Source: Streptomyces sp. NBC_01351
Lineage (GTDB): Bacteria > Actinomycetota > Actinomycetes > Streptomycetales > Streptomycetaceae
Assembly: GCF_036237315.1 (NCBI RefSeq)
Contig: NZ_CP108356.1
Coordinates: 5,151,501 to 5,215,500, forward strand
DNA length: 64,000 bases
Direction of reading: 5' to 3'
The number at the start of each line of letters is the position of its first letter. Within the stretch, counting starts at the first letter, position 1. Both the position numbers and the translations under genes were made by a program. The notes under the pieces are model-generated. The model did no database searches, was not told the origin of the DNA, and saw only the letters and a program-made list of their open reading frames with translations. Shown here in pieces: positions 2,078 through 57,028 of this stretch.

Positions 2078-2175
2078 CTCCCCCGGCTACCGCTGGGAGG
2101 TACCCCCAGCGGCTCGCTCGGCCGGGTCTCCGGGGGTCGGCCCCCGGGCCCTTGGGCCTGCGGCCCCCGTACGGG
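2078..2175. repeat. modular GC-rich repeat, copy 1
   Basis: It starts right after the cbs stop codon with a variant of the module CTCCCCCAGCTACCGCTGGG followed by AGGTACCCCCAG. It continues into G/C palindromic sequence (GGGGGTCGGCCCCC; GGCCCCCGTACGGGGGTC). It probably folds as stem-loops at the mRNA 3' end. The same module recurs near 4810, 10711, 24182, 43721 and 43840. Confidence 0.65.
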
Positions 2176-2710
2176 GGTCTTGCCCATGGGCCGGCCCGGC
2201 CGGGTCCGGGCGCGCGCCGGGGCGTCTCCTCGGGCGTCGAACGTGTCGGGGGGTCGGTGGGCCGAGGGTGGTTGTGTTCGACGCCCTGCGGGGACGCCCC
2301 ACCGCACACCCGGCCCCGTCCGGTCCGGCGGGCACCGGGCGGGGAAGTCGCGCAAACGGTACGGGCCCGTCACGTGACGGCAGCACCGGCTTAACACGGC
2401 TCCGGCACAGTGGTGGTTGTCGGCAGGGAAGCCCGGGAGACCGGATCCCGGCCGGCACCACCGAACGGCGCGAACGCACCTCCGGAGCGGCTCCCGGATC
2501 GCGTGGACGCCACGGACGCGGAACGGCCCTGACCCGGCCCGTGTCCTCCGCGGGGACCGCCGTCGTCCCGCCCCCGGGCAACCGGGGTGCGGCGGTCCCC
2601 GCCTATTCCCTCCCGGGACGGGTGCGCCGGACGGCCTCCTGCACGCGGGCCCGCCTCGCGGCCTTCAGCCGGGCGCTCTCCGGCTTCCTCCAGCCCTGCT
2701 CGCGGGGTGA

Positions 2711-2774
2711 CTCAGCCCCGCCGGCGTTTGAGGCGCGCGGTCTGGGGCGGCGCCCCAGCAGCGGCGCCGCAGCC
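2711..2774. repeat. modular GC-rich repeat, copy 2
   Basis: It contains the core module (CAGCC..GCCGGCGTTTGAGGCGCG) followed by TCTGGGGCGGCGCCCCAGCA and GCGGCGCCGC. It lies just downstream of the minus-strand membrane protein stop at 2784, fitting a 3'-end or terminator-like position. Confidence 0.75.
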
Positions 2775-2783
2775 GAACAGCGG

Positions 2784-3152
2784 TCAGTCCCGCCGGCGCA
2801 GCCCCTTGGCCGCGTGGATGAAGTTCACGCCCACGATCCCGGCCCAGGCCACCAGCAGCCCCGGCAGGCGCGCCTGCGCAGCAGCAATGGCCGAGAGCGG
2901 GATCGCCAGCACCAGCGTGATGATCGCGAAGCCGAAGCGTTCGCCGAAGCCCCCCTCCGTCACGGCAGGACCGGCGGGGCCACGGGCCGCGGACAGGCGT
3001 TCCTCCGCGAGCCGGCGCCGGACCTGCGTGTCGAGCTTCTCGACGAACGAGTCCACCAGCGCGGCCTCGTACTCCGGACCCAGCTCCCGCCGGGCGTCCA
3101 GCGTGGCGCCGAGTTCCTTCTTCAGTTCATGGGTGTGGGCGTGGTCATCCAT
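2784..3152 (-). CDS. small membrane protein, function unknown
   Basis: 122 residues. The N-terminal half (1-70) is hydrophilic and charged, His-rich at the start (MDDHAHTHELKKEL), and predicted cytosolic and helical. Two hydrophobic segments follow at about 75-96 (FAIITLVLAIPLSAIAAAQ) and 98-118 (LLVAWAGIVGVNFIHAAKGL), then a basic tail GLRRRD. The start is ATG 3152 with GGGGA just upstream. It is divergent from the RpiR-type regulator, about 140 bases apart, so the two may share a control region. I do not recognise a named family. Confidence 0.75.
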   Translation of the reverse strand: MDDHAHTHELKKELGATLDARRELGPEYEAALVDSFVEKLDTQVRRRLAEERLSAARGPAGPAVTEGGFGERFGFAIITLVLAIPLSAIAAAQARLPGLLVAWAGIVGVNFIHAAKGLRRRD

Positions 3153-3292
3153 GTCCCCACGGTAGGAACCGCCGGTGCCCCCCGCACTGGGGCTATCCCC
3201 CGTATCCGGATAGCGGGCACGGCTTGCCCGTGTGCATAACCGCATGCAGAGTGCTCCGTGACTGAATATCTCACCGGGACGGAGGGGGCGGC

Positions 3293-4138
3293 ATGAGTGA
3301 CAGCCCGGCGGCGCGGCTGCAGAAGCTGTTCGAGGGGCACCGGCTGACGCCGACCCAGCGGCGGATCGCGCACTGCATGGTGCGCGGGGCCGCGGAGGTG
3401 CCCTTCCTGTCGAGCGTGGAGCTCGCCGAGCTGGCCGGGGTGAGCCAGCCGTCCGTGACCCGCTTCGCGGTGGCGCTGGGCTTCGACGGATATCCCGCGC
3501 TCCGCCGCCACCTGCGCGAGGTGGCGCCCGCCGCCGAGCGGACCGCCACCGCGCACGAGGACGCGTACAACGAGTACCAGCAGGCCGTTCAGGGGGAGAT
3601 CGAGAACCTGCGGCAGCTGTCGGCGATGCTCGCCGACCCCTCGCCCGTCCAGGAGGCCGGCCGGCTGCTCGCCGCCTCGACCCCGCTGCCGGTGCTCGGG
3701 CTGCGGGCGGCGTCCTCGCAGGCGCGCGGTTTCGCGTACTTCGCCTCCAAGGTGCACCCGGACGTACGGCTCCTCGACGAGGGCGGCTCGATGATGGACG
3801 ACCGCATAGACGCGGCCGTCGCCGCCGGGGCGAGCACCCTGCTCTGCTTCGCGCTGCCCCGGCATCCCCGGGAGGTCGTGGAGGCACTGGAGCGCTCCCG
3901 GCGGGCCGGCCTGACCGTGGTGACGGTCGCCGACTCGGCCTTCGCCCCGGTGGCCCGCCACTCGGACCTGCTGATCCCGGCCCCCGTCGGCACCGGCCTG
4001 GCCTTCGACACGGCGTGCGCGCCGATGCTGCTGGGCCGGGTGCTCCTGGAGGCGATGGCGGACGCGCTGCCCGATGCGCAGGCGCGGCTGGAGGCCTTCG
4101 ACGCGCGGGCGGTGTCGCGCGGGCTGTTCGTGGACTGA
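3293..4138 (+). CDS. MurR/RpiR family transcriptional regulator with SIS domain
   Basis: 281 residues. An N-terminal helix-turn-helix of the HTH_6 type (about 1-80) has recognition segment VSQPSVTRFAVALGFDGYP. A C-terminal SIS domain (about 125-265) has the sugar-phosphate loop around LGLRAASSQARG. These proteins usually sense a phosphorylated sugar or amino sugar and control nearby catabolic or peptidoglycan-recycling genes. No sugar-catabolic operon adjoins it, so the ligand is unknown. ATG 3293 is preceded by GGAGGGGGC. The next gene downstream, on the other strand, is a broken monooxygenase. Confidence 0.88.
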   Translation: MSDSPAARLQKLFEGHRLTPTQRRIAHCMVRGAAEVPFLSSVELAELAGVSQPSVTRFAVALGFDGYPALRRHLREVAPAAERTATAHEDAYNEYQQAVQGEIENLRQLSAMLADPSPVQEAGRLLAASTPLPVLGLRAASSQARGFAYFASKVHPDVRLLDEGGSMMDDRIDAAVAAGASTLLCFALPRHPREVVEALERSRRAGLTVVTVADSAFAPVARHSDLLIPAPVGTGLAFDTACAPMLLGRVLLEAMADALPDAQARLEAFDARAVSRGLFVD

Positions 4139-4152
4139 GCCCGCCCCGCCGC

Positions 4153-4733
4153 TCAGCGGTGGTTCAGCTCCGCGAGCTCGGTGGCGAGCGTCGCGCAGCG
4201 CCGGGATGCGCGGCAGGACGGGGAGCAGGGCGTTGCGGACGGCGCGCAGGACCGGGTTGCGGGTGGTCGCGACCCGGGTCATCCGGTCGGTGAGGGCCAC
4301 CACACGCTGGGCGACGGGCCGTCGGCGGGCCTCGTAACCGTCCAGGCTCTCGCCGGCGAAGGCGCGGCCCAGGGCGTACCCGTCCTGGATGCCGGTGTTC
4401 GTGCCCTGGCCGCCGGCCGGGCTGTGCACGTGGGCGGCGTCCCCGGCGAGCAGCACCGCCTCGGTCTCGTACTGGGGGGGCCATCAGCGCGTACGGGTGG
4501 GCCGTGCGCAGACCGCCGAAGGGGATCGTGGTGAGGGGGCGGGCGCCGTCGCGGATCCGGAACCGGGTGACGGGGATGCCGCGGCCGATCAGCTCGCCGT
4601 GCAGGGCGCCGGAGGGGTCGAGCTCGTCGAGCACCTCCAGGGTGCGGGCGTGCACGACGGCGGCGCGGGTGGGGGTCCCCCCGGCGGAGCCAGGGGGAGT
4701 GTTGGCGCCCTCGGCCTGCTTGTCGAGGAGCAC
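4153..4733 (-). pseudogene. FAD-dependent aromatic monooxygenase remnant (PheA/TfdB type)
   Basis: Only fragments remain. Reading from 4733, the frame gives LLDKQAEGANT, then a foreign stretch PPGSAGGTP, then TRAAVVHARTLEVLDEL, a typical post-Rossmann segment. It runs to PYALMAPP, where a run of seven C/G residues (about 4476-4482) shifts the frame. The other frame continues QYETE and jumps directly to LLAGDAAHVHSPAGGQG, the second FAD-binding motif, so about 150-200 central residues are missing. Near the end a second shift is needed to read LATELAELNHR before the stop at 4153. The GxGxxG N-terminus is also absent: repeat copy 3 starts there. Two frameshifts, a deletion and a 5' truncation make function very unlikely. 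Confidence 0.88.
4669..4700. repeat. short repeat-family insertion inside monooxygenase remnant
   Basis: A GTGGGGGTCCCCCC stretch followed by GGCGGAGCCAGGGGGAGT resembles the module seen at 4767, 26540, 43798 and 56962. It interrupts LLDKQAEGANT/TRAAVVHARTLEVL, which is normally contiguous in this enzyme family, and encodes the foreign PPGSAGGTP stretch. Confidence 0.6.
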
Positions 4734-4740
4734 GGGGCTG

Positions 4741-4884
4741 GAAGATCAGCCTCGCCGGCGTTTGAGGCGTGGGGGTCCCCCCGGACGGGGTCTGGTGGGG
4801 GCACTTCCCAGCGGTAGCTGGGGGAGAGGGTCCGGGGCGGAGCCCCGGTTCGGGAAGGGGCGGGGTGGGGGAAGGCCCGCGCAG
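4741..4884. repeat. modular GC-rich repeat, copy 3
   Basis: The modules in order are: the core CAGCCTCGCCGGCGTTTGAG; the GTGGGGGTCCCCCCGGAC arm; CCCAGCGGTAGCTGGGGGAG; the stem GTCCGGGGCGGAGCCCCGG; and the tail TTCGGGAAGGGGCGGGGTGG. It sits exactly where the 5' end of the monooxygenase should be and downstream of the PLP decarboxylase stop. Confidence 0.8.
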
Positions 4885-4887
4885 CGG

Positions 4888-6219
4888 TTACAGCAGGGCA
4901 TCCCCGCAGGCGCCGCCGGCCTCCGCGACGATCTCCGCGGGCCCCTGCGCCGGTCGCGCCATCGAGAAGCGGACCCGGCCCCCGGGAGACACCGCGAAGC
5001 CGTGCACCGCGGGCCGCGGGAGGCTGTTGTAGCCGTAGTGGGCCGTGAAGAAGTACGCCCCCGTGTCCGGAACGCCGATCACGTCCCCCGGATCCAGCCG
5101 CGGCAGCTCGCGCGCCGTCGCCAGGAGGTCGCCCGCGAAGCAGGCCGGGCCCGCGATGTCCTGCGCCACCGGCTCCCCGGCCTTCGCGACGCCCTTCGCG
5201 TCGTACGGCAGGATCCGCACCGGCCAGGACGCCGGCGCGTACGCGGTGCGGGTCGCCAGCTGGACCCCCGCGTGGGTGAGGGCGATCGCACGGCCCCCGC
5301 TGGTCTTGGTGTACTCGACCCGCGCCAGGACCAGGCCGTTCTTGGCCAGCAGGGACCGCCCGAACTCCGTGACGAGCCCGTACGAGCCGTCGAAGAGCCC
5401 CGGGACCGCCTCGCGCAGGGCCGCGACGTACTCCCCGTATGTGGGGACCGCCTCGTCCGAGGTGAAGTTCACCGGCAGGCCCCCGCCGATGTCGAGGGTG
5501 TCGACCTGCCGGCGCCCGGCCGCCGCGTTGATCTCCTCGGCCAGCGCGTGCAGTTCCCGTACGCCCTCGGCGATCAGGGCCAGCGGGACGCCCTGCGAGC
5601 CCGAGTGGGTGTGCAGCCGGGTCAGCCACGGCCGCTCCGCGTAGGCCCGTACGAGCCACTCGCGCGCCCCCGGGTCGCGCAGCGCGATGCCGAACTTCGA
5701 GGTGGCCGTGGCGGTGGACAGCGCGCCGATGGTGCCCGCTCCGGTCTGCGGGTTGATCCGCACCCCGATCGGGGACGCGGGCGGGGTGGGGGCGGAGCCG
5801 ACGAGCGCGTCGAGGCGCTCCAGCTCCTGGCGGTTGTCGGCGTTGACGGCGATGCCCAGCGCCAGGGCCTCGCGCAGCTCGCCCTCGGTCTTGGCGGGGG
5901 AGTCCAGCACGATCCGCCCGGCCGGCAGCCCGGCCGCCCGGGCCAGCGCCAGCTCGCCGGGGCTGGCGACCTCGCAGCCGAGCCCGGCGTCGGCGAGCAG
6001 CCGCAGTACGGGCACGAGCGGGGCGGCCTTGACGGCGAAGGCGTGCAGGACGGGGGTGCCGGGCGCCACCGCGGCGGCGAAGGCGCCGGTCAGGGCGGCG
6101 GCGGAGGCCCGGATCCCGGCGGTGTCCAGCAGGCAGGCCACCGGCTCGGAGTCGAGGAGGCCCTGCGCGACGGCGGCACGTACGACCAGATCCCTGTCCA
6201 TGTCGTCCATGCCCGCCAT
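4888..6219 (-). CDS. type III PLP-dependent decarboxylase (DapDC/ODC-like fold)
   Basis: 443 residues. An alanine-racemase-like TIM barrel carries the PLP lysine in HAFAVKAAP (about K65), the substrate-binding HSGSQG, the glycine-rich phosphate loop DIGGGLPVNF and ExGR-type EFGRSL. A C-terminal Greek-key domain has GPAC in place of the GPxCDS of diaminopimelate decarboxylase, and TGAYFFTAHYGYNSLPRP. Membership of the DapDC/ODC family is clear, but divergence at the specificity motif means the substrate (diaminopimelate, ornithine, arginine or another amino acid) cannot be read off. It is divergent from hutU, about 95 bases apart. The start is uncertain: ATG 6219 lacks a good RBS, and ATG 6210 is an alternative. 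Confidence 0.85.
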   Translation of the reverse strand: MAGMDDMDRDLVVRAAVAQGLLDSEPVACLLDTAGIRASAAALTGAFAAAVAPGTPVLHAFAVKAAPLVPVLRLLADAGLGCEVASPGELALARAAGLPAGRIVLDSPAKTEGELREALALGIAVNADNRQELERLDALVGSAPTPPASPIGVRINPQTGAGTIGALSTATATSKFGIALRDPGAREWLVRAYAERPWLTRLHTHSGSQGVPLALIAEGVRELHALAEEINAAAGRRQVDTLDIGGGLPVNFTSDEAVPTYGEYVAALREAVPGLFDGSYGLVTEFGRSLLAKNGLVLARVEYTKTSGGRAIALTHAGVQLATRTAYAPASWPVRILPYDAKGVAKAGEPVAQDIAGPACFAGDLLATARELPRLDPGDVIGVPDTGAYFFTAHYGYNSLPRPAVHGFAVSPGGRVRFSMARPAQGPAEIVAEAGGACGDALL

Positions 6220-6249
6220 CCCATCATCCGAAGGAGCGACCCGCAGCTG

Positions 6250-6278: not shown

Positions 6279-6314
6279 GTGAATGGATTGACCAACATCG
6301 GAGGAGGCACCGCC

Positions 6315-7975
<1,661 letters not shown>

Positions 7976-7979
<4 letters not shown>

Positions 7980-9286
7980 GCGAGGCCGACATCCCGGGTG
8001 CGGCGCCGCTGCCGGGGCTCCGCCCCGGACCCCGCGCGTCAAACGCCGGCGAGGCTGAATCGGCGGGGCGGGGAGAGAGCAGCTCTTTCCACGCCATGTG
8101 GGCCGACCTCGCGCCCATCGGCCGCAACGCGGACTCCGGTGGGTACCGCCGCTATGCGTGGACCGGCGCGGACGCCGACTGCCGGACCTGGTTCCAGGCG
8201 CAGGCAGAGGCCCGCGGGCTGACGTACGAGACCGACCGCAACGGCAACCAGTGGGCCTGGCTCGGCGACCCCCTCGCGGGGGACGCCGTCGTCACCGGCT
8301 CGCACCTGGACTCCGTCCCCGACGGCGGGGCCTTCGACGGCCCCCTCGGGGTGGTGTCCTCCTTTGCGGCCCTGGACGAACTCCGCAGGAGGGGCGCGGA
8401 GTTCGCCAGGCCACTCGCCATCACCAACTTCGGTGACGAGGAAGGCGCCCGCTTCGGCCTCGCCTGCGTCGGCTCCCGGCTCGCCGCCGGGCAGCTGACC
8501 AAGGAGAAGGCGTACGAGCTCCGCGACGCCGACGGCATCAGCCTGCCGCAGGCGATGGAGGCCGCCGGGTACGACCCCGACGCCATCGGGGCCGACCCCG
8601 AACGCCTCGCCCGCATCGGCGCGTTCGTCGAGCTCCACGTGGAGCAGGGCCGGGCCCTCGACCTCTCCGGCGACCGGGTCGGCATCGCCTCCGCGATCTG
8701 GCCGCACGGCCGCTGGCGGTTCGACTTCCACGGCGAGGCCAACCACGCGGGCACCACCCGCCTGGTCGACCGCCGCGACCCGATGCTCACGTACGCGGCG
8801 ACCGTCCTCGCGGCCCGCACCGAGGCGGCCCTCGCCGGGGCCGTCGCCACCTTCGGGAAGATCGCGGTCGAGCCCAACGGGGTCAACGCCATCCCCTCCC
8901 TGGTGCGCGGCTGGCTCGACTCGCGCGCCGCCGACCAGGCGACCCTCGACACGGTGGTCACCGCCATCGAGAAGGCCGCCCGCGAGCGCGCCGGCCAGGA
9001 CGGTATCGACCTCGCGATCGTCCGGGAGTCCTTCACCCCGGTCGTCGAGTTCGAGCACGCCCTGCGCGACGAGATGAACCGGATCCTGGGCGGGTCCGTC
9101 CCCGTCCTCGGCACGGGCGCGGGACACGACGCCGGAATCCTCTCCGCCGCCGTCCCCACCGCGATGCTGTTCGTACGGAACCCGACCGGCGTCTCCCACT
9201 CCCCGCGGGAGTTCGCCGCCGAGGACGACTGCGTGGCGGGCGTCCTCGCCCTCGCCGACGTACTGGAAGGACTCGCGTGCCGGTGA
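7976..9286 (+). CDS. M20-family amidohydrolase (allantoate amidohydrolase/N-carbamoylase type) in the hut operon
   Basis: 436 residues, dinuclear metal-dependent M20 peptidase-fold amidase. Metal and catalytic motifs are [19 protein letters not shown] (His and two Asp), [10 protein letters not shown] (Glu-Glu) and ELHVEQG. The dimerisation/lid region has [10 protein letters not shown], and the C-terminal His is near GVSHSP. The start GTG overlaps the hutU stop (GTGA), and the stop overlaps the start of hutF. Residues about 7-28 ([21 protein letters not shown]) are a translation of the intergenic repeat, not family sequence; homology begins at about [13 protein letters not shown] 8096 is an alternative start but has only a weak RBS. 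The position between hutU and hutF suggests it deformylates N-formylglutamate (inference). Confidence 0.85.
7996..8062. repeat. modular GC-rich repeat, copy 4, inside a coding region
   Basis: In reverse orientation it contains the modules GCGGCGCCGC, CCGGGGCTCCGCCCCGG and TCAAACGCCGGCGAGGCTGA. It lies within the 5' end of the M20 amidohydrolase gene and keeps its reading frame. Confidence 0.85.
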
Positions 9287-10626
9287 CGACGCGTACGACG
9301 TACTGGCTGGAACACGCCTGGCTCGACACGAACGTCGAGCCGGGCGTGGCCCTGGACGTATCCGCCGACGGGCGGATCGCCGCCGTCCGGACCGGGGTCG
9401 AGGCCCCGCCCCCCGGCGCCGAAGTGCTGCGCGGCCTGACGATCCCGGGCCTCGCCAACGCGCACTCCCACGCCTTCCACCGGGCCCTGCGCGGCACGGT
9501 CCAGGTCGGCTCGGGCACCTTCTGGACCTGGCGCGACTTCATGTACAAGGTCGCCCAGAACCTCACCCCCGACACGTACTTCGCGCTCGCCCGCGCCGTG
9601 TACGCCGAGATGGCGCTGGCCGGCATCACCGACGTCGGCGAGTTCCACTACGTCCACCACGCCCCGGGCGGCGCCCCGTACGCCGACCCGAACGCCATGG
9701 GCGAGGCCCTGATCGAGGCCGCGGCCGCGGCCGGCATCCGGATCACCCTCCTCGACACCGCCTACCTGTCGGCAGGCTTCGGGGAGGCCCCCAACCACCA
9801 CCAGCTGCGCTTCTCCGACGGCACCGCCGACGCCTGGGCGGAGCGGGTCAGCGCCTTGAAGCCCCGCGAGCACGCCCTGATCGGCGCCGCGATCCACTCC
9901 GTACGCGCGGTCCCGGCGGGGCAGTTGGCCACGGTCGCCGCGTGGGCGCAGGAGCGCGGGGTGCCGTTGCACGTGCACCTCTCCGAGCAGACCGCGGAGA
10001 ACGACGCCTGCCAGGCCGCGCACGGCCGCACCCCGACCCAGCTCCTCGCCGACCACGGGGTGCTGGGCCCGCGCACCACGGGCGTCCACAACACGCACCT
10101 GACCGACGTGGACATCGCCCTCCTCGGCGGCACCACCACCGGCACCTGCATGTGCCCCACCACCGAACGCGACCTCGCGGACGGCATCGGCCCGGCGGTC
10201 CGCCTCCAGCGGGCGGGCAGCCCGCTCTCGCTCGGCAGCGACAGCCACGCGGTGATCGACCTGCTGGAAGAGGCCCGCGCGATGGAGCTCAACGAGCGGC
10301 TCGCCAGCCGCACGCGCGGCCACTGGACGGCGGCGGCGCTGCTGCGGGCGGCCACGGCCGATGGCCATGCGGCGCTGGGCAGGCCGGATGCGGGCAGCCT
10401 GTCGGCGGGCGGGCTCGCGGACTTCACCACCATCGCCCTGGACTCGGTCCGCACCGCCGGTCCCGTCCCCCGGCTCGGCGCGGAGATGGCGGTCTTCGCG
10501 GCTTCGGCCGCCGATGTCCGGCACACGGTGGTCGGGGGCCGCCACATCGTCCGCGACGGCGTCCACACCCTGGTCCCGGACGTCCCGTCGGCCCTGGCTT
10601 CCACCATCGCCGCCCTCCGCGCCTAG
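9277..10626 (+). CDS. hutF: formimidoylglutamate deiminase
   Basis: 449 residues, amidohydrolase superfamily. It converts N-formimino-L-glutamate to N-formyl-L-glutamate and ammonia. Metal ligands are visible: HxH in [16 protein letters not shown] (about residue 62), His in HVHLSEQ, His in GVHNTHLTD, and the acidic ligand in [11 protein letters not shown]. The start is GTG 9277, six bases after GGAAGG and overlapping the previous stop; GTG 9283 is a second possibility. It is the third gene of the hut unit and is separated from hutI by a repeat-filled gap. Confidence 0.92.
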
Positions 10627-10649
10627 CGGGGGACGCCTGCGGCGGGCCT

Positions 10650-10869
10650 TTCCCCCACCCCGCCCCTTCCCGAAACTGGGGGCTCCGCCCCCAGACCCCC
10701 GCGCCTCAAACTCCCCCAGCTACCGCTGGGAGGTGCCCCCTGGCGAGGCTGAATGGTGCCGCTGCGCGGCACTATCCAGCCCGCCCGGCGTTTGAGGGCA
10801 CGGGCGCGCAGCGCACGTACGGGGTCTGGGGCGGAGCCCCCAGTTTCGGGAAGGGGCGGGGTGGGGGAA
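10650..10869. repeat. modular GC-rich repeat, copy 5 (inverted pair with nested module)
   Basis: Two oppositely oriented copies face each other. The left arm has CCACCCCGCCCCTTCCCG, GGGGGCTCCGCCCCC and CCTCAAA; the right arm has GGCGTTTGAGG, TCTGGGGCGGAGCCCCCAG and TTCGGGAAGGGGCGGGGTGG. In the left arm the module CTCCCCCAGCTACCGCTGGG.. occupies 10711-10741, splitting the normally contiguous CTCAAACGCCGGCGAGGCTG core. The block fills the gap between hutF and hutI. Confidence 0.85.
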
Positions 10870-10903
10870 CAAAAACAACTCGACCACCACGAGGAACCGC
10901 GAC

Positions 10904-12077
10904 CATGACCACCGCAATCACCAACATCGGCAGTCTCGTCACCAACGACCCCGCCCTCGGCGACGGCCCCCTAGGCCTGATCAAAAACTCCACCGTCGTC
11001 ATCGACGGCGACCGCATCGCCTGGGTCGGCCCCGCCGACAAGGCCCCCGCCGCCGACACCGCCTTCGACGCGGCCGGCCGCGCCGTCATCCCCGGCTTCG
11101 TCGACTCCCACTCGCACCTCGTGTTCGCCGGCGACCGCACCGCCGAGTTCAACGCCCGGATGTCCGGCAGCAGCTACGCCGCCGGCGGCATCCGCACCAC
11201 CGTCGCCGCCACCCGCGCCGCCACCGACGCCGAGCTCGAAGCGAACCTGCTGCGCCACCTCGACGAGGCCCGCCGCCAGGGCACCACCACCTTCGAGACC
11301 AAGTCCGGCTACGGCCTCACCGTCGCCGACGAGGCCCGCGCCCTGCGGATCGCCGCCGCGCACACCGAGGAGGTCACCTACCTCGGCGCGCACATCGTCT
11401 CCCCGGACTACGCCGACGACCCGGCCGGCTACGTGGATCTCGTCACCGGCGAGATGCTGGAGGCCTGCGCCCCGTACGCCCGCTGGGTGGACGTCTTCTG
11501 CGAGAAGGGCGCCTTCGACGGGGAGCAGGCCCGCGCGATCCTCACCGCGGGCGCCGCCGCCGGCCTGATCCCGCGCGTGCACGCCAACCAGCTCTCCCAC
11601 GGCCCCGGCGTGCAGCTGGCCGTCGAGCTCGAAGCCGCCTCCGCCGACCACTGCACCCACCTCACCGACGCCGACGTGGACGCCCTCGCCCAGGCCGCGG
11701 GCACCACCGTCGCCACCCTGCTGCCCGGCGCCGAGTTCTCCACCCGCGCCCAGTGGCCCGACGCCCGCCGTCTGATCGACGCGGGCGTGACCGTGGCGCT
11801 GTCCACGGACTGCAACCCGGGCTCCTCCTACACGAGTTCGATGCCCTTCTGCATCGCGCTCGCCGTGCGCGACATGCGGATGACCCCGGACGAGGCCCTG
11901 TGGGCCGCCACCGCCGGCGGAGCCCGCGCCCTGCGGCGTACCGACATCGGCAGGGTCACCCCCGGAGCCCGCGCCGATCTGGCCCTGCTGGACGCTCCCA
12001 GCCACGTCCACCTGGCCTACCGGCCCGGTGTCCCGCTGGTTTCCGCCGTGTGGCAGAAGGGTGTCCGCGCGCACTGA
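10904..12077 (+). CDS. hutI: imidazolonepropionase
   Basis: 390 residues, amidohydrolase superfamily. It hydrolyses 4-imidazolone-5-propionate to N-formimino-L-glutamate, the step between HutU and HutF. The metal-binding HxH is in [15 protein letters not shown], with the family sequences [20 protein letters not shown] and [16 protein letters not shown] (Asp ligand). ATG 10904 follows GAGGA. A 277-base repeat block separates it from hutF, so it may have its own promoter or be read through. hutH (histidine ammonia-lyase) is not in the window. Confidence 0.95.
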
Positions 12078-24072: not shown

Positions 24073-24414
24073 CGCGGCCCCGCCGCACGGGGCTCCGCCC
24101 CGGCCCCGCGCCTCAAACGCCGGCGAGGCTGGATTTTCCAGCCGTCCGGCGTTTGAGGACCGGGTCTGGGCAGAGCCCTGGGGGCACCTCCCAGCGGTAG
24201 CTGGGGGAGGAACGGTGGAAGGGCGGGGCGGGGAGAGGCTCCGCGCAGCGGCACCCCCGCACCCCGCCCGGCCAGGGCAAGGGCACCACGTCCGGCCAGG
24301 GGAACGGGGTTCGGCCCTGCCACCCGAACGCCACACCCACCAAGCAACACACACGCCCCGCGTGTCACGGTGGCACCATCTCTCCCTGCTGCCTCCGAGA
24401 CCGGAGCGAACGCC
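24073..24414. other. 342-base interval between tandem dipeptidase paralogues
   Basis: It is mostly repeat copy 6 (to about 24245). The rest (24246-24414) is GC-rich with no ORF or clear promoter that I can support; no typical RBS precedes ATG 24415. Confidence 0.55.
24078..24245. repeat. modular GC-rich repeat, copy 6 (inverted pair)
   Basis: Two cores in opposite orientation (CCTCAAACGCCGGCGAGGCT and CCGTCCGGCGTTTGAGG) flank a short TTTTC centre and would form a long stem-loop. Modules CCTCCCAGCGGTAGCTGGGG and AGGGCGGGGCGGGG follow. It lies directly after the first dipeptidase stop, where it could act as a terminator. Confidence 0.85.
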
Positions 24415-26516: not shown

Positions 26517-26673
26517 GACCTGGGGCTCCGCCCCAGACCCTCCCCCAGACTCCGTCCGGGGGGACCCCCACTCCTCAAACGCCGGCAGGGCTGGATTGCC
26601 CGCAGGGCAATGTCAGCCTCGCCGGCGTTTGAGGCGCGGGGTCCGGGGCGGAGCCCCGGCAGCGGCGCCGCAC
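26517..26673. repeat. modular GC-rich repeat, copy 7 (inverted pair)
   Basis: The left arm has GGGGCTCCGCCCCAGACC, CTCCCCCAGACTCCGTCCGG and CCTCAAACGCCGGCAGGGCT; the right arm has CAGCCTCGCCGGCGTTTGAG and GTCCGGGGCGGAGCCCCGG plus AGCGGCGCCGC. It fills the convergent gap between the CGNR and UDP-glucose dehydrogenase genes. Confidence 0.85.
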
Positions 26674-43673: not shown

Positions 43674-43916
43674 AGTCGGGTGCGGCGCCGCTGTCGGGGG
43701 CGCTGCCCCCGAACCCTCCCCCAGCTACCGCTGGGGGTACCCCCAGCGCCTCAAACGCCGGCGAGGCTGGGGGTTCAGCCCCTCCGGCGTTTGAGGAGTG
43801 GGGGTCCCCCCGGACGGAGTCTGGTGGGGGCACCTCCCAGCGGTAGCTGGGGGAGAGGGGCCGGGCAGAGCCCGGGGAACGGTGGAAGGGCGGGGTGGGG
43901 AACGGCCCCGCAGGGC
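43674..43916. repeat. modular GC-rich repeat, copy 8 (largest, inverted pair)
   Basis: It contains nearly all modules in both orientations: GCGGCGCCGC, CTCCCCCAGCTACCGCTGGG, the core CCTCAAACGCCGGCGAGGCT, CTCCGGCGTTTGAGGAG, GGTCCCCCCGGACGGAGTCT, CCTCCCAGCGGTAGCTGGGG and AAGGGCGGGGTGGGG. It fills the gap between the amidase and glycosylase genes. Confidence 0.88.
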
Positions 43917-44939: not shown

Positions 44940-44955
44940 CCGCGCGGCCGCCGGA

Positions 44956-45032
44956 TTTCAGCCTCGCCGGCGTTTGAGGCGCGGGGGTTCGGGGGCAGCG
45001 CCCCCGACAGCGGCGCCGCAGGCTGACTCCCC
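44956..45032. repeat. modular GC-rich repeat, copy 9
   Basis: Core TTTCAGCCTCGCCGGCGTTT with GAGGCGCGGG, then TTCGGGGGCAGCGCCCCCGA and CAGCGGCGCCGC. It lies between the convergent glycosylase and fbiB genes. Confidence 0.85.
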
Positions 45033-49109: not shown

Positions 49110-49160
49110 CACCACCCCCGGACCCTCCCCCAGACTTCGTCCGGGGGGACCCCCAGGCCG
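49110..49160. repeat. modular GC-rich repeat, copy 10 (partial)
   Basis: CCCGGACCCTCCCCCAGACT followed by TCGTCCGGGGGGACCCCCAG: the module shared with 26535-26570 and others, without the GGCGTTTGAGG core. It lies about 15 bases upstream of the glycosyltransferase ATG and so may be in its leader. Confidence 0.7.
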
Positions 49161-49175: not shown

Positions 49176-52100
49176 ATGTCCCTGCACAGCCAGTCGGCGG
49201 CCTCCCGCCAGGCCCCCGCCACACCCGAGTTCCCCCGGCACGTCGTCACCGCGGTCCTCGTCGCCCACGACGGCGCCCGCTGGCTGCCCCGGACCCTCGC
49301 CGGCCTGCTCGGCCAGGAACGCCCCGCGCAGAACCACGTCGCCGCGGACACCGGCAGCGCCGACGAGTCCGCGAGCCTCCTCAACCAGGCCTTCGGCGAC
49401 GACCGCGTCCTGCACCTCGCCCGCCGCACCGGATTCGGCGCCGCCGTCGACGAAGCCGTCCGCACCGCCGGCACCCTGACCCCCGAGGACCTCCCGTACC
49501 TCAAGCGCCCCAGCGGCTGGGACCCCGTCAGCCGCACCTGGCGCGACGACCACTACGACCTTCCCGAGCTCCCGCACGGCGAACCGGTCCAGTGGCTCTG
49601 GCTGCTCCACGACGACAGCGCCCCCGAACCGGACGCCCTCACCGAACTGCTCCGCGTCGCCGACGAGAACCCCGACGCCGCCGTCATCGGCCCCAAGCTG
49701 CGCGGCTGGTACGACAAGAAGCAGCTCCTCGAAGCCGGCGTCACCATCGCCCGCAGCGGCCGCCGCTGGACCGGCCTCGACCGCCGCGAACAGGATCAGG
49801 GCCAGCACGACCAGGTCCGCCCCGTCCTCTCCGTCTCCACCGCCGGCATGCTGGTGCGCCGCGACGTCTACGAAGCCCTCGGCGGCTTCGACCGCCGTCT
49901 GCCCCTCATGCGCGACGACGTCGACCTGTGCTGGCGTGCCCAAAGCGCCGGCCACACCGTCCTCGTCGCCCCCGACGCCGTCATGCGCCACGCCGAGGCC
50001 TCCGCCCGCGAACGCCGCACCGTCGACTGCGCAGGCCGTACGAGCGCCAGCCCGCACCGCGTGGACAAGGCCGGCGCCGTCTACACGATGCTCGCCAACA
50101 GCTCCGGCCGCGCGCTCCCGTACGTCCTGCTCCGCGTGCTGCTCGGCACCGTCCTGCGCACCCTCGCCTACCTCGTCGGCAAGGCCCCCGGACAGGCCGT
50201 CGACGAGATCACCGGCCTCCTCGCCACCCTGCTGCGCCCCGGCAGGATCCTCGCCGCCCGCAAGCGCCGCAGCCGCCCCGCGGTCCCCGCCGCCGAACTG
50301 CGCCCGCTCTTCCCGCCGCCCGGTGCCTCCCTGCGCGCCAACGCCGAACAGCTCGCCGGATACTTCGGCGACACCCGCGACACCGACTCCGCCCCCGCGG
50401 GCCGGCACGGCGGCGGCAGCATCCTGAACGCCCCCGGCGAGGACGGCGACTACCCGGTGGCCGAGGAGCGGTTCGCGCGCCTCAAGCGGATCGCCCGCAA
50501 CCCCGCCCCCGCACTCTTCGCCGTCCTCCTGCTCGTCTCCCTCGCCGCCTGCCGCGCCCTGATCGGCGGCGGCTCCCTGATGGGCGGCGCCCTGCTGCCC
50601 GCCCCCGACAGCGGCCCCGAACTCTGGCGGGCCTACACCGCCGGCTGGCAGCCCGTGGGGACCGGTTCCACCGAATCGGCGCCCCCGTACCTCGCCGTCC
50701 TCGGAGCCCTCGCCACCCTGCTCTTCGGATCCACCCAGGCCGCCCTGACCCTGCTGCTCGTCGGATCCGTCCCGCTCGCCGGCCTCGCCGCCTACTTCGC
50801 GTCCCGGCCCCTGGTCGAATCCCGGCTGCTGCGCGCCTGGGCCGCCGTCGCCTACGCCTTCCTGCCCGCCGTCACCGGAGCCCTCGCCGGCGGCCGCCTA
50901 GGCACGGCTCTGCTCGCCGTCCTGCTGCCGCTGATCGCCCGCTCCGCCGTCTCCGCCTTCGGACTCGGCGGGACCCCCGGCAAGACCGACGACCCCGAGC
51001 AGCGCCCCGGCCGGCGCGCGGTGTGGACGTACACCCTCCTGCTGACGCTGGCCACCGCCTTCACCCCCGTCGTCTGGCTGCTCGCCGCCCTCCTCGGCGC
51101 GGCCGCGCTCGCCCACCGCCGCGCGCAGTGGAAGACGTACGGACCGCGCCTGCTCGCCACCCTCGCCGTCCCGGTCCTCGTCCTCGCCCCCTGGTCGCTG
51201 GGCCTGCTCCTGCACCCCGGCCGCCTCCTCGACGAGGCCGGCCTGCCGTACGGAGCCGGCTCCGCGGGCGGCCTCGACCTCCTCGGCATCAGCCCCGGCG
51301 GACCCGGCACCGGAGCCGGCCTGCTCCTCATCGGCATCGTCCTCGCCGCGCTGGCCGCCCTGCTCCGCACCGAGCGCCGGTTCGCCGTCCGCGCCGCCTG
51401 GGCCACCGCCCTGGCCGGCCTGGCCCTCGCCGTCCTCCTCAACCGCGGCTCCTGGGCCGGACCCGCCACCCTCGTCTACGGACTCGCCCTCCTCGCCGCC
51501 GCCGCGGTCGGCGCGGACGGCGCCAGGGAACGCGTCGCCGCCCGCAGCTTCGGCTGGCGCCAGCCGCTGGCCGCGCTCATCGCGCTCGCCGCCGTCGCGG
51601 GCCCGCTGTTCGCCGCGGCCACCTGGATGGTCGCCGGCGCCGACGGTCCGCTGCAGCGCCGCGACCCCGTCCAGGTCCCGGCCTTCGTCGCCGACGCCGG
51701 CGGGGACGACAACCAGACCCGCACCCTGATCCTCGACCTGGACGCGCCCGGCGGCGTCTCGTACAGCCTCGTGCGCGGGGCCGGCGGCCGCCTCGGCGAC
51801 GCCGAGATCACCAGCGCGAGCGGCGGCGACCCCCGCCTCGACAAGGTCGTCTCCAACCTCGTCGCCGGATCCGGCGCCGACCAGTCCAGCCAGCTCAGCG
51901 CCTACGCCATCCGCTTCGTCATGTTCCGCCCCGGCGGCCCCGAAGAGATCCGCCGCGTCCTCGACGCCACCCCCGGCCTCAACCGCCGCCACCAGCAGGA
52001 CGGCACCTCCCTGTGGGGCGTCGAACCCTGGCTGCCCCGCGCCGTCATCGTCTCCGCCAAGCCGGGCGAGGCCCCCGTCCCGGTCGCCGCGGGCCCCGTG

Positions 52101-52859
52101 GAGGCCCACGGTTCCAAGATCCCCAATGGTGAGGCGGGCCGCGTGCTGCGCATCGCCGACCGCGCCGACGCGGGCTGGAAGGCCACCCTCGACGGCACGC
52201 CCCTCAAGCCCAAGACCCTCGACGGCTGGGCACAGGGCTTCGAGCTCCCCGTCGAAGGCGGCCGGCTCGACCTCGTCCACGAGAGCTCGATCCTGCGGAC
52301 CGTCTGGCACTGGGCGCAGGGCCTGCTCGCGCTGGTGCTGCTGGTGATGGCCCTCCCGGGCCGCCGGGCCCGGCTCGACGACGACCTCCCGGAGGAGGAG
52401 GCCACCGCCTCCGAGCCCACCGGCGAGGGCCGTCGCGCCCGCCGCCTGCGCGCGGAGTCCGAGCCGGCCCCGGCGCCGGTGGAGGCAGCGGCCGTCGCCG
52501 ACCCGTACGCGGAGATCCCCGCGCAGCCGTCGTACGGCGAGGACGCGTACGCGTACCAGGCGTACGGCGACCAGAGCGGCTACGCGTACGAACAGCAGCA
52601 GCAGCAGCCGCAGCCGCAGCAGTACGACCAGTACCCGACGGCTGCGTACGACCAGCAGGGCCAACAGCCCCCCCAGCAGGCCTACGAGGACCCGTACCAG
52701 CAGCAGTACGCCCAGCCGTACGGGCAACAGCAGTACGAGCAGCCGTACGAACAGCAGCCGTACGAGCACCAGCAGCCGTACGAGCCCTTCGACGCCTTCC
52801 GCCCGAACGACCCCCACGCACAGCACGACCCGCGTCCTGACGGGAGCCCCCAGCAGTGA
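49176..52859 (+). CDS. giant membrane family 2 glycosyltransferase with Gln/Tyr-rich tail
   Basis: 1227 residues. The N-terminal GT-A domain (about 20-290) has VVTAVLVAHDGARWLPRTLAGLL, the DxD-like LLHDDSAPEPDAL and LPLMRDDVDLCWRAQSAGH. About a dozen hydrophobic segments follow (about 305-345, 440-820), then an extracytoplasmic domain (about 830-1035) and a last TM (about 1050-1070). The tail from about 1110 is dominated by Tyr and Gln (e.g. YEQQQQQPQPQQYDQYP), with YGQQQYEQPYEQQPYEHQ-type repeats. Layout resembles actinobacterial galactofuranosyl/arabinosyl-type transferases. ATG 49176 has GGAGGG 11 bases before it. It is coupled to the DUF5719 gene by GTGA. Confidence 0.9.
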   Translation: MSLHSQSAASRQAPATPEFPRHVVTAVLVAHDGARWLPRTLAGLLGQERPAQNHVAADTGSADESASLLNQAFGDDRVLHLARRTGFGAAVDEAVRTAGTLTPEDLPYLKRPSGWDPVSRTWRDDHYDLPELPHGEPVQWLWLLHDDSAPEPDALTELLRVADENPDAAVIGPKLRGWYDKKQLLEAGVTIARSGRRWTGLDRREQDQGQHDQVRPVLSVSTAGMLVRRDVYEALGGFDRRLPLMRDDVDLCWRAQSAGHTVLVAPDAVMRHAEASARERRTVDCAGRTSASPHRVDKAGAVYTMLANSSGRALPYVLLRVLLGTVLRTLAYLVGKAPGQAVDEITGLLATLLRPGRILAARKRRSRPAVPAAELRPLFPPPGASLRANAEQLAGYFGDTRDTDSAPAGRHGGGSILNAPGEDGDYPVAEERFARLKRIARNPAPALFAVLLLVSLAACRALIGGGSLMGGALLPAPDSGPELWRAYTAGWQPVGTGSTESAPPYLAVLGALATLLFGSTQAALTLLLVGSVPLAGLAAYFASRPLVESRLLRAWAAVAYAFLPAVTGALAGGRLGTALLAVLLPLIARSAVSAFGLGGTPGKTDDPEQRPGRRAVWTYTLLLTLATAFTPVVWLLAALLGAAALAHRRAQWKTYGPRLLATLAVPVLVLAPWSLGLLLHPGRLLDEAGLPYGAGSAGGLDLLGISPGGPGTGAGLLLIGIVLAALAALLRTERRFAVRAAWATALAGLALAVLLNRGSWAGPATLVYGLALLAAAAVGADGARERVAARSFGWRQPLAALIALAAVAGPLFAAATWMVAGADGPLQRRDPVQVPAFVADAGGDDNQTRTLILDLDAPGGVSYSLVRGAGGRLGDAEITSASGGDPRLDKVVSNLVAGSGADQSSQLSAYAIRFVMFRPGGPEEIRRVLDATPGLNRRHQQDGTSLWGVEPWLPRAVIVSAKPGEAPVPVAAGPVEAHGSKIPNGEAGRVLRIADRADAGWKATLDGTPLKPKTLDGWAQGFELPVEGGRLDLVHESSILRTVWHWAQGLLALVLLVMALPGRRARLDDDLPEEEATASEPTGEGRRARRLRAESEPAPAPVEAAAVADPYAEIPAQPSYGEDAYAYQAYGDQSGYAYEQQQQQPQPQQYDQYPTAAYDQQGQQPPQQAYEDPYQQQYAQPYGQQQYEQPYEQQPYEHQQPYEPFDAFRPNDPHAQHDPRPDGSPQQ
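52505..52858. repeat. imperfect Tyr/Gln codon repeats (CCGTACGA.CAGCAG)
   Basis: CCGTACGAGCAGC/CAGCAGTACGAGCAG-type units encode about 118 low-complexity residues at the C-terminus of the glycosyltransferase. Prone to in-frame length change. Confidence 0.65.
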
Positions 52860-54346: not shown

Positions 54347-54358
54347 CGCATGCGCCCG

Positions 54359-54452
54359 GAGGGGCTGAAGGTGCCGCGCAGCGGCAAATTCAGCCCCTCC
54401 GGCGTTTGAGGAGCGGGGGCTCGGGGGCGGAGCCCCCGCAACGGCGCCGCAC
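54359..54452. repeat. modular GC-rich repeat, copy 11
   Basis: GGAGGGGCTGAA..GCGCAGCGGC and CAGCCCCTCCGGCGTTTGAG form an inverted core around a CGCGCAGCG loop. GGGGCTCGGGGGCGGAGCCC and CAACGGCGCCGC follow. It is convergent between the DUF5719 and metallopeptidase genes. Confidence 0.85.
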
Positions 54453-54481
54453 CCGACCACAGCCATGGCCGGGCCGAATGG

Positions 54482-54961: not shown

Positions 54962-55051
54962 CCCCGCAGGGTAGCCCGCACGGCGACACGGGGGAGTGAG
55001 CGGCGGCGGAGTCGTCGCGGCCCGGTCAAGAGTGCGGTACCGTCCAACGTC

Positions 55052-55435
55052 GTGAGCCTTGTACGTCGCTGTTCGCGCACTGCGTGCGGCCGCCCTGCCG
55101 TCGCGACACTGACGTACGTCTACGCCGATTCGACCGCAGTTCTCGGCCCGCTCGCCACCTATGCCGAACCCCACTGCTACGACCTGTGTGCCGAGCACTC
55201 GGAGCGCCTGACCGCGCCGCGCGGCTGGGAAGTCGTCCGCCTGTCCGACGGCTCCGCGCCGTCGCGCCCCAGCGGCGACGACCTCGAAGCCCTCGCGAAC
55301 GCCGTCCGCGAAGCAGCCCGCCCGCCCGGGCGCGCCGCCGAGGCCGGAGGCTCCGGTCGCGGCCAGAACGGCGGCCCCGGCACCGGCGAGACGCGCCGTG
55401 GCCACCTGCGCGTCCTGAGATCGCCCGATTCCTGA
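55052..55435 (+). CDS. DUF3499 family protein, probable zinc-binding
   Basis: 127 residues. The conserved N-terminal core (1-70) contains RRCSRTACGRPAVATLTYVYADSTAVLGPL and EPHCYDLCAEHSERLTAPRGWEVVRL; the four cysteines and His suggest a zinc ribbon. The C-terminal half is disordered (Gly/Arg/Pro-rich). The start GTG 55052 gives the core directly; longer frames add nonconserved sequence. It is a small conserved actinobacterial protein of unknown role, upstream of phosphomannomutase. Confidence 0.87.
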   Translation: MSLVRRCSRTACGRPAVATLTYVYADSTAVLGPLATYAEPHCYDLCAEHSERLTAPRGWEVVRLSDGSAPSRPSGDDLEALANAVREAARPPGRAAEAGGSGRGQNGGPGTGETRRGHLRVLRSPDS

Positions 55436-55525
55436 CGCTCTGATCCCTGACTGCGTCGTCTGTCTGGCCCCTCCGGGTTCAAGGTAGGTTGGCTCGACCG
55501 CACAGGACCTTCAGGAGGGCAGGCA

Positions 55526-56896
55526 GTGGCCGCAGATTTTTCGAACATCGTCAAGGCGTACGACGTACGCGGCGTCGTACCGGACGAGTGGGACGAGCCC
55601 CTGGCGGAACTGTTCGGTGCAGCGTTCGTCGAGGTCACGGGTGCCACGGCGATCGTGATCGGCCACGACATGCGCCCCTCCTCCCCGGGCCTGTCCACCG
55701 CCTTCGCGCGCGGCGCGGCCGCCCGCGGTGTGGACGTCACCCTGATCGGGCTGTGCTCCACCGACCAGCTGTACTACGCATCCGGCTCCCTGAACCTGCC
55801 GGGCGCCATGTTCACGGCCTCGCACAACCCGGCCAAGTACAACGGCATCAAGCTGTGCCGCGCGGGCGCCGCCCCGGTCGGCCAGGACACCGGCCTCTCG
55901 CAGATCCGCGAGCTGGTGGAGAAGTGGACCGACGAAGGCGCCCCCGCCATCCCGGCCGACACCACGCCGGGCACCATCACCGAGCAGGACACCCTCACCG
56001 GTTACTCCGACCACCTGCGCGGCCTGGTCGACCTGACCGCGATCCGCCCGCTCAAGGTCGTCGTCGACGCGGGCAACGGAATGGGCGGCCACACCGTCCC
56101 GACCGTCTTCGAGGGCCTCCCGCTGGACCTCGTCCCCATGTACTTCGAACTGGACGGGACCTTCCCGAACCACGAGGCCAACCCCCTCGACCCGAAGAAC
56201 ATCGTCGACCTCCAGGCCCGCGTCCTCGCCGAGGGCGCCGACCTCGGCATCGCCTTCGACGGCGACGCCGACCGCTGCTTCATCGTCGACGAGCGCGGCG
56301 AGGGCGTCTCCCCGTCCGCGATCACCGCGCTGGTCGCGGCCCGCGAGCTGGCGCGCAACGGCGGCACCGGCACGGTGATCCACAACCTGATCACCTCCTG
56401 GTCCGTCCCCGAGGTCGTCCGCGAGAACGGCGGCACCCCCGTCCGCACCCGCGTCGGCCACTCCTTCATCAAGGAGGAGATGGCCAAGACCGGTGCCATC
56501 TTCGGCGGCGAGCACTCGGCGCACTACTACTTCAAGGACTTCTGGAACGCGGACACCGGCATGCTCGCCGCGCTCCACGTCCTCGCCGCCCTCGGCGGCC
56601 AGGACGGCCCGCTTTCCGGCCTCGTGGTCTCCTACGACCGCTACGAGGGCTCCGGCGAGATCAACTCCACCGTCGCCGACCAGGCCGGCCGCCTGGCCGC
56701 CGTCAAGGAGACCTACGCCGCCCGCGAGGACGTCACCCTCGACGAGCTGGACGGCCTCACCGTGACGGCCGAGGACTGGTGGTTCAACGTCCGCGCCTCC
56801 AACACGGAGCCCCTCCTCCGCCTGAACGTGGAAGCCCGCGACGCGGCCACCCTCGCCAAGGTCCGCGACGAGATCCTGGCCCTCATCCGCGCCTGA
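55526..56896 (+). CDS. manB: phosphomannomutase/phosphoglucomutase
   Basis: 456 residues, alpha-D-phosphohexomutase. It interconverts mannose-6-P/mannose-1-P (possibly also glucose phosphates). The phospho-serine loop is in MFTASHNPAKYNGIK, the Mg-binding loop AFDGDADRCFI, the sugar loop GGEHSAHYYF and the phosphate loop near the C-terminus RASNTEPLLRLNVEA. GTG 55526 has AGGAGGG 9 bases upstream. The product feeds the GDP-mannose enzyme at 30310 for mannolipids, glycoproteins and glycopolymers. Confidence 0.95.
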   Translation: MAADFSNIVKAYDVRGVVPDEWDEPLAELFGAAFVEVTGATAIVIGHDMRPSSPGLSTAFARGAAARGVDVTLIGLCSTDQLYYASGSLNLPGAMFTASHNPAKYNGIKLCRAGAAPVGQDTGLSQIRELVEKWTDEGAPAIPADTTPGTITEQDTLTGYSDHLRGLVDLTAIRPLKVVVDAGNGMGGHTVPTVFEGLPLDLVPMYFELDGTFPNHEANPLDPKNIVDLQARVLAEGADLGIAFDGDADRCFIVDERGEGVSPSAITALVAARELARNGGTGTVIHNLITSWSVPEVVRENGGTPVRTRVGHSFIKEEMAKTGAIFGGEHSAHYYFKDFWNADTGMLAALHVLAALGGQDGPLSGLVVSYDRYEGSGEINSTVADQAGRLAAVKETYAAREDVTLDELDGLTVTAEDWWFNVRASNTEPLLRLNVEARDAATLAKVRDEILALIRA

Positions 56897-56899
56897 CCG

Positions 56900-57028
56900 A
56901 ACGCCGGCGGGGCTGAAGCTGCCGCGCAGCGGCACATTCAGCCCCGCCGGCGTTTGAGGCGTGGGGGTCCCCCGGGACGGAGTCTGGGGGAGGGCCCGGG
57001 GCGGAGCCCCGGCAGCGGCGCCGCACCA
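56900..57028. repeat. modular GC-rich repeat, copy 12
   Basis: GAACGCCGGCGGGGCTGAAG and CAGCCCCGCCGGCGTTTGAG form an inverted core about a CGCGCAGCG loop. GTGGGGGTCCCCCGGGACGG, the stem CCCGGGGCGGAGCCCCGG and CAGCGGCGCCGC follow. It lies between manB and the Trm112-like gene, both on the plus strand. Confidence 0.88.

Follow-up and report, generated by a model that had tools for sequence, protein, structure and literature searches.

What is the repeat that recurs, in changing order and orientation, within a 64-kb stretch of the Streptomyces sp. NBC_01351 chromosome, and how did it spread there? The stretch (G000:C1:5151501–5215500, hereafter the window; G000, its own genome, comprises 8.9 Mb) had been described in a sequence-only reading as carrying a modular, apparently mobile repeat family at twelve listed loci. 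We find that the central unit of the family, here called the head, forms a hairpin whose loop is constant, and that larger palindromic units are built around it. On balance, we favor the view that these units are non-autonomous hairpin-based mobile elements of Streptomyces, similar to REPINs (hairpin-forming doublets of repetitive extragenic palindromic, REP, sequences) and to palindromic miniature inverted-repeat transposable elements (MITEs) in the way they work, and we assign them to neither group.

The head is an abundant hairpin with a fixed loop

The 20-nt core defined in the sequence-only reading matches the window 12 times at up to three mismatches, compared with 0.03 matches expected from 100 shuffles, and a 12-mer core matches 13 times, the extra copy being degenerate in the 20-mer. 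In the whole genome, counted at up to two mismatches with the reversed pattern as a control, the core has 322 copies and the backwards control none. Head units make up about 5% of the intergenic DNA examined in G000 and 10% in the window. Other modules also exceed expectation in the window: the G/C stem (10 vs 1.8), a hairpin containing GGTAGC (6 vs 0.27) and a tail (3 vs 0.03). The AGACTCCGTCC arm is weaker (6 vs 1.5 expected, with one of 100 shuffles reaching 6) and is accepted as real because it is part of a recurring, defined unit of ~30 nt. Another contig, possibly a plasmid that would offer a route between strains, carries one exact head copy (G000:C3:28517–28536).

For local analyses, 1.664 Mb of G000 (2.6–3.4 Mb, 6.0–6.8 Mb and the window) were surveyed, yielding 168 heads at up to three mismatches; flanks were read from every second one. 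The head is a hairpin with the loop GGCG(T/A)TTGA and a 4-bp stem that varies among copies yet remains paired (CGCC/GGCG, GTCC/GGAC, CTCC/GGAG and GCGC/GCGC were found). When copies were anchored on the loop alone, flanking positions 1–4 of the 129 GGCGTTTGA loops in the surveyed DNA paired at 0.95, 0.95, 0.90 and 0.91, and the fifth position at 0.02. Nine altered loops served as controls: GGCGCTTGA (84 copies) showed intermediate pairing of 0.40–0.50 and GGCGTTCGA (145 copies) 0.27–0.41, both loops being present also as degenerate heads; GGCATTTGA occurred as a single, paired copy, and the remaining loops (4–42 copies) ranged from 0.12 to 0.75.

The stem is fully paired in 43 of 83 distinct heads. 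In a test on 80 distinct heads, pairs 2, 3 and 4 lay above all 300 shuffles of the 3' letters, which ignore the relatedness of copies (pair 3, 0.725 vs 0.393, standard deviation 0.049; pair 4, 0.762 vs 0.480, standard deviation 0.046), and pairs 1, 5 and 6 did not. Sliding the partner by 1–3 positions lowered pairing from 0.795 to 0.286–0.566, where 0.566 rests on one position. Against Rfam covariance models the window gave two matches, both below threshold and both away from the elements.

Heads are built into half-elements and complete elements

Head, G/C stem and end follow each other, in this order, in a half-element of the form AATC-CAGCC(C/T)CG-CCGGCGTTTGAGG-CGCGGGG-TC(C/T)-GGGGCGGAGCCCC, completed by one of several ends (CAGCGGCGCCGCA, TTTCGGGAAGGGGCGGGGTGGGGGAA, GGAACGGTGGAAGGGCGGG... 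or GATCTTTGAGCCGC...). A complete element consists of two head-to-head half-elements round a short centre, often a mini-hairpin whose arms differ from copy to copy but pair (18 pairs read). The copy at 10650–10869 is complete, with ends that form a perfect, 100% complementary 42-bp inverted repeat and with no coding capacity between them; similar ends occur in relatives. One end is absent from many copies, which are thus half-elements. The ~30-nt unit mentioned above, here called the cassette, occurs within these elements and alone. The copies in the window are as follows.

2078..2107, minus strand: stand-alone 30-nt cassette, right after the stop of 692–2077 (pyridoxal phosphate enzyme with a CBS domain)
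2713..2770, plus strand: half-element; head (loop 2723–2731), G/C stem, GCGGCGCCGC end; 3' of gene 2784–3152 (minus strand)
4671..4699, plus strand: cassette of the CCGGCGGAGCCAGG subtype, in frame within a broken gene remnant, adding PPGSAGGTP; empty site in L034
4747..4870, plus strand: half-element; head, two cassettes (one within the other), G/C stem 4834–4846, inverted-end sequence 4849–4870; 3' of gene 4888–6219 (minus strand)
8000..8057, minus strand: half-element; GCGGCGCCGC end, G/C stem, head; past the stop of the urocanase gene 6396–7979
10650..10869, no strand assigned: complete element; 42-bp inverted ends 10650–10691 and 10828–10869; left head split by a cassette (10711–10740), right head 10777–10797
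24085..24227, no strand assigned: head-to-head pair; loops 24113–24121 and 24148–24156, stem, cassette 24180–24209, end sequence 24209–24227; folding z –7.6
26520..26671, no strand assigned: head-to-head pair between convergent genes; stems 26522–26534 and 26645–26657, cassette 26540–26569, heads 26573–26593 and 26614–26634; z –8.6
43682..43894, no strand assigned: head-to-head pair; cassettes 43716–43744 and 43826–43855, end sequence 43876–43894; z –9.7
44959..45019, plus strand: half-element in a gap flanked by convergent genes; head, stem, GCGGCGCCGC end
49125..49154, minus strand: stand-alone cassette of the AGACTTCGTCCGG subtype, upstream of gene 49176–52859
54356..54450, plus strand: head-to-head pair flanked by convergent genes; left head truncated, mini-hairpin at the centre, stem, end; z –6.1
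56895..57024, plus strand: head-to-head pair; decayed left head 56895–56915 over the stop of 55526–56896, cassette 56963–56992, stem 56998–57010, GCGGCGCCGC end; z –6.0

Compared with shuffled sequences, the five head-to-head pairs at 26.5, 43.7, 24.1, 54.4 and 56.9 kb fold strongly (z listed above), and 10736–10869 (z –0.9), 4747–4870 (–2.0), 44955–45022 (–1.3) and 8000–8060 (–0.3) fold no or barely better. Among neighboring heads up to 300 bp apart, 35 are head-to-head, 27 direct and 2 tail-to-tail; up to 120 bp the numbers are 34, 26 and 0, and 61 of the 168 heads are single. Short distance limits favor the head-to-head class because tail-to-tail partners would be kept at a greater distance by their arms. 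Heads also form tandem arrays in this genome and in two other Streptomyces genomes, G007 and G212 (L221 of G212, ~9300–9900, and L218 of G007, ~9700–10250, with periods of ~51 bp and ~93 bp), and 40-mers recur up to nine times in the 1.66 Mb of G000.

The recurrent family is thus real, and all twelve loci listed in the sequence-only reading are present, those near 2.1 and 49.1 kb as cassette only; the cassette at 4671–4699 has to be added. The modules named there do recur, but its "hairpin" and "arm" are two subtypes of the one cassette, and its "tail" is the inverted end of the complete element. Its prediction that inverted pairs fold into long hairpins holds for the five pairs above, and the pairs in the window are head-to-head.

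The genes around the copies are ordinary: the 20 proteins scanned against Pfam, of 51 called in the window, include urocanase, M20 and M19 peptidases, amidohydrolases, UDP-sugar dehydrogenase, F420 ligase and phosphomannomutase. The cassette at 4671–4699 is carried by a frame-shifted, uncalled gene remnant (4139–4730, minus strand), which we take to be FAD-dependent monooxygenase-like from a motif that we recognized; L033 and L036 have gaps of 22 bp and 12 bp there.

The family is centred on Streptomyces and turns over between relatives

The strict pattern CAGCCNNNCCGGCG(A/T)TTGAGG was found in 6 of 8 genomes of the same genus and in none of 110 other genomes of the class; the shorter 12-mer gave stray matches outside the genus, 0–2 per genome. 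The ATTGAGG variant is present in 108 of 199 Streptomyces genomes, and exact CCGGCGTTTGAGG is absent from 46 of 150. The family is mainly found in, and centred on, Streptomyces; "Streptomyces only" would be too strict, given one head-like sequence with four mismatches in Actinacidiphila (L071). We found no description of the family in the open-access literature searched, a partial view that does not prove absence.

The family turns over rapidly: copy number at up to two mismatches varies among relatives from 322 in G000, 235 in NBC_00249 and 161 in ISL-87 to 10 in BR123, 6 in S3(2020) and 1 in S. flavotricini. Of 163 gaps common to G000 and NBC_00249, 8 contain heads only in G000, 5 in both, 1 only in NBC_00249 and 149 in neither. 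Of 186 gaps common to G000 and S. flavotricini, 16 contain heads only in G000, none in S. flavotricini and 170 in neither; S. flavotricini is without all 16 orthologous copies compared. In 140 gaps with both orthologs, heads occur only in G000 in 6, in G000 and NBC_00249 in 4, only in NBC_00249 in 1 and in no genome in 129. Gaps with a head in one genome only are longer by a median of 190 bp (vs NBC_00249) and 250 bp (vs S. flavotricini). Inspected by eye, some S. flavotricini gaps have other GC-rich palindromes and others nothing similar. Comparison of orthologous gaps had been proposed as the test of mobility; since heads in G000 are missing from relatives at such gaps, it did not refute turnover.

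Broader searches extended the comparison to individual gaps. A head-like copy was seen in 6 of 67 orthologs of gap 7980–8095, whose median length is 53 bp, and in 3 of 68 orthologs of gap 10627–10904, with a median of 59.5 bp; for the convergent gaps 2078–2783 and 4139–4887 the counts are 2 of 19 and 0 of 13. These mostly short, head-free orthologs suggest the polarity of gain. No head was seen by eye in gap 7980–8095 of seven close loci, and the half-element 8000..8057 is missing from S. flavotricini (L033, a 35-bp gap) and present in L036. A search for loci matching the gap at 10.7 kb, in which 66 of 392 genomes were not scored, showed outer ends common to most loci and heads of different stem subtypes among species, a pattern that looks like exchange of interiors. 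In L036, L046 and L054, the orthologs of 7980–8095 and 10627–10904 contain head elements of differing subtypes, as if these gaps were recurrent targets.

Such exchange raises the alternative that the family spreads and changes mainly via homologous recombination or gene conversion and palindrome deletion, with no dedicated transposition. The same gap with the same ends and different head subtypes across species fits this alternative, as do the tandem arrays of the three genomes and the repeated 40-mers. Conversion, however, needs a resident copy and leaves unexplained those copies whose gaps are short and empty in most of the relatives compared, as well as the contrast of 322 copies to 1 and the cassettes in unrelated sequence. 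We therefore regard recombination as an unlikely main route.

A second hairpin cassette is nested in the elements and has its own distribution

The cassette has the form (T)GGGGG..CC.., hairpin, ..GGGGGAG, spans ~30 nt and occurs in several stem/loop subtypes. A loose pattern gave 100 matches in the scanned DNA, some of them by chance (5, 14 and 6 in block-shuffled 400 kb vs 29 in the real sequence). Six cassettes interrupt a head at nearly the same place (three in G000 outside the window and one each in the window, NBC_00249 and G018); many lie where head and stem meet, several are nested in another cassette and others stand in unrelated sequence. Called genes contain 8 of 81 matches in G000 DNA. 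Cassettes were also seen in open frames of G000, ahead of the domain in an NlpC/P60 gene and close to the N-terminus in a transglutaminase-like gene; at these in-frame loci (L129 10719–11795 and L031 18051–18866) they lie outside or before Pfam domains.

Empty sites were sought in 24 alignments, many of them repeat to repeat. Three are clear: GGGGC[GGG]CGTGG at segment A 646285 (G000:C1 ~3,246,286), GCGGG[ACG]TGTT at window 4671 vs L034, and the uninterrupted head of L036 vs window 10711. No target-site duplication was found at these three cassette sites, where 3–4 bp are replaced (for the large unit, duplications are not readable). A353602, A647066/A647087, A731415 and window 2077 are orthologous-looking sites with unclear junctions, the cassette 2078..2107 being absent from the orthologous gaps of L033 and L036; at A378157 the relative is ~15 bases longer, so larger replacements occur.

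In 150 Streptomyces genomes surveyed for one cassette subtype, it was found in 39 and the TTTGAGG head in 104. Among genomes with at least 20 heads, 26 of 39 are without this subtype; conversely, heads of both loop types are missing from G093 and G097, which carry 18 and 9 cassettes. Cassette and head thus have separate species distributions and separate histories, which, together with the nesting, bears out the earlier impression that modules occur separately. Longer hairpins in the frame GGGGGTCCCCCC...GGGGGAG with a different core (L055 14237, L056 14321, L061 196) perhaps represent a related cassette family in other species.

Heads accumulate at gene 3' ends

Genes were called with a simple codon-score script, without annotation. 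Only 10 of the 168 heads lie in called genes and 158 outside. Among gaps of at least 40 bp, a head is present in 40 of 167 convergent, 49 of 581 tandem and 4 of 247 divergent gaps (Fisher test: convergent–divergent 2e-13, tandem–divergent 8e-5, convergent–tandem 5e-7). When 110 bp were subtracted per head, gaps of at least 150 bp held heads in 15 of 52 convergent and 0 of 172 divergent cases. Of the 82 heads in tandem gaps, 53 lie closer to the stop, and orientation shows no bias (41 with and 41 against transcription). The listed window copies likewise lie between called genes, in line with the reported preference for gaps after stop codons. This 3'-end accumulation is most simply explained by selection against copies in promoter regions. 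A chromosome-orientation signal, similar to the FtsK-orienting polar sequences, was considered and rejected: plus/minus counts of 46/36 (2.6–3.4 Mb), 32/42 (6.0–6.8 Mb) and 8/4 (window) show no clear strand bias.

The elements could instead be portable 3'-end structures kept by the host for that job, as I-shaped or Rho-assisted terminators or stabilizers of mRNA 3' ends. The gap bias and the strong folding of the five inverted pairs agree with such a role, and so do the structured, U-poor 3' ends of S. clavuligerus described in PMC8269248. It is at odds with S. flavotricini, which is without all 16 copies compared, with the equal orientation in tandem gaps, with the half-elements that fold little or no better than shuffles and with the lack, by reading, of a U-tract after the G/C stems of the window copies, although U-less terminators have been proposed for GC-rich genomes (PMC8269248). 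Promoter avoidance accounts for the gap bias equally well. We find such host use improbable. Bacterial interspersed mosaic elements (BIMEs) of E. coli are binding sites for gyrase or nucleoid protein, and binding of such a chromosome protein to absorb supercoils between convergent genes would suit the convergent enrichment, the fixed loop and the arrays; it is most improbable here for sequences dispensable to the 46 of 150 genomes without exact CCGGCGTTTGAGG.

Comparison with known elements and the search for an enzyme

BIMEs of enterobacteria are mosaics of palindromic modules at gene 3' ends, in arrays. The present family is a mosaic of this kind, with a different sequence and an extra cassette that has its own species distribution. 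Like Rickettsia palindromic elements, the cassette is a small palindromic insert that can be read in frame within genes (window 4671–4699, NlpC/P60, transglutaminase-like), but at ~30 nt it is much shorter and rarely in called genes.

REPINs and GTAG-type REPs with their RAYT (REP-associated tyrosine, Y1) transposases are taken here as defined in PMC3116915, PMC2817692 and PMC3733652. As in REPs and REPINs, the head is a high-copy extragenic imperfect palindrome whose main neighbor arrangement is the inverted doublet; hundreds of short copies, facing pairs that fold into long hairpins, complementary stem changes and uneven distribution among related genomes are shared with REPINs. Unlike in REPINs, no GTAG/GTGG tag lies by the stem, the loop is fixed and the stem variable, singles are not more diverged than pairs, no repeat-flanked RAYT was found, and the elements have inverted ends and harbor a nested cassette. 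The CGTC-type REPs of PMC3733652 are similar in that head-to-head dimers predominate, tail-to-tail pairs are rare and no transposase association is reported; here, in contrast, there is no terminal CGTC tag, the stem has 4 bp instead of 8–9 bp and the loop 9 nt instead of 4–5 nt. The main text of that paper has no occurrence of Streptomyces or Actinobacteria. The family resembles MITEs, as commonly understood and as described in PMC2817692, in that its complete copy is bounded by inverted ends and lacks a gene and that copies are dispersed and nested. It differs from them in its many half-elements and in that no target-site duplication was seen at the three clear cassette sites; no parental insertion sequence came to light, although none was sought genome-wide. 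The remark that the family is unlike a normal MITE is thus apt for the half-elements and not for the complete copy. PMC4681348 notes that palindromes of S. coelicolor and E. coli give rise to abundant short transcripts, many of them in 3' untranslated regions, and names REP for E. coli.

The Y1 transposase family PF01797 (Y1_Tnp) is represented in G000 by one IS200-like frame of 145 residues, whose 3.4-kb locus is free of heads and cassettes. Y1_Tnp is present in G224 and G227 and absent from G226, G223 and G225. Of the genomes tested, 6 of 11 with high copy number have it and 1 of 10 with no copies, a tendency that we do not dismiss, but it is missing from the high-copy genomes G002, G063, G075, G098, G133 and G226. 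No GTAG/GTGG or CGTC tag is conserved beside the head in the copies read by eye. With no such tag, no repeat-flanked RAYT and high-copy genomes lacking a Y1 transposase, we reject membership in the RAYT/REP system. The suggested link to the GTAG head of REPs fails as well: GGTAGC lies in the cassette loop and not in an unpaired terminal tag. The statement that the window has no transposase stands for the 20 proteins scanned, the other 31 being outside the scan.

A model for spread

The conserved signal is the loop GGCG(T/A)TTGA, while the stem may vary in sequence provided that its arms pair. In the model that we propose, the mobile units would be half-elements or two facing heads inside inverted ends. 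An enzyme acting in trans, probably not, or not always, a Y1/RAYT transposase, would recognize the extruded hairpin, the putative intermediate, and spread copies of the unit to further gaps. Interiors may then be swapped when copies recombine, and the ~30-nt cassette would insert independently.

Several observations weigh against spread by such mobile elements. Movement itself was not observed, and no mobilizing enzyme was found, Y1_Tnp being the sole family searched. Because the relatives are only ~88% identical in protein sequence, neither the exact boundaries of the large unit nor its target sites could be read. S. flavotricini may have lost copies instead of the other genomes having gained them, and at gap 10.7 the element is present in 11 of 11 best-matching close loci, a biased sample in which L240 and L036 do not differ in this gap and may represent one strain. 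Unlike in REPINs, heads that stand alone are no more diverged than those in pairs (mean identity 0.927 for 61 single and 0.913 for 68 paired heads), although this test is limited by the choice of copies at up to three mismatches. Both tail-to-tail neighbors are 120–200 bp apart. In gaps of 60–150 bp, with the same subtraction per head, gap types do not differ (convergent 5/75, divergent 4/73, tandem 14/246). Finally, stem pair 1 is at 0.863 vs 0.821 in shuffles (largest shuffle 0.887), because this pair hardly varies.

A bolder version can be put forward only tentatively: that the elements form a new class of hairpin mobile DNA centred on Streptomyces, recognized by loop and not by tag, moved by a non-Y1 enzyme and parasitized by a self-spreading ~30-nt cassette that would be among the smallest independently mobile bacterial DNAs.

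For all the use and engineering of Streptomyces genomes, we found no account of this family in the open-access literature searched, even though its head units by themselves make up ~5% of the intergenic DNA examined. Its fixed loop provides a concrete bait for the missing enzyme or a binding protein, and the contrast in copy number among relatives makes a genome-association search for the enzyme possible. The nested cassette, in turn, tests the lower size limit of mobile DNA.

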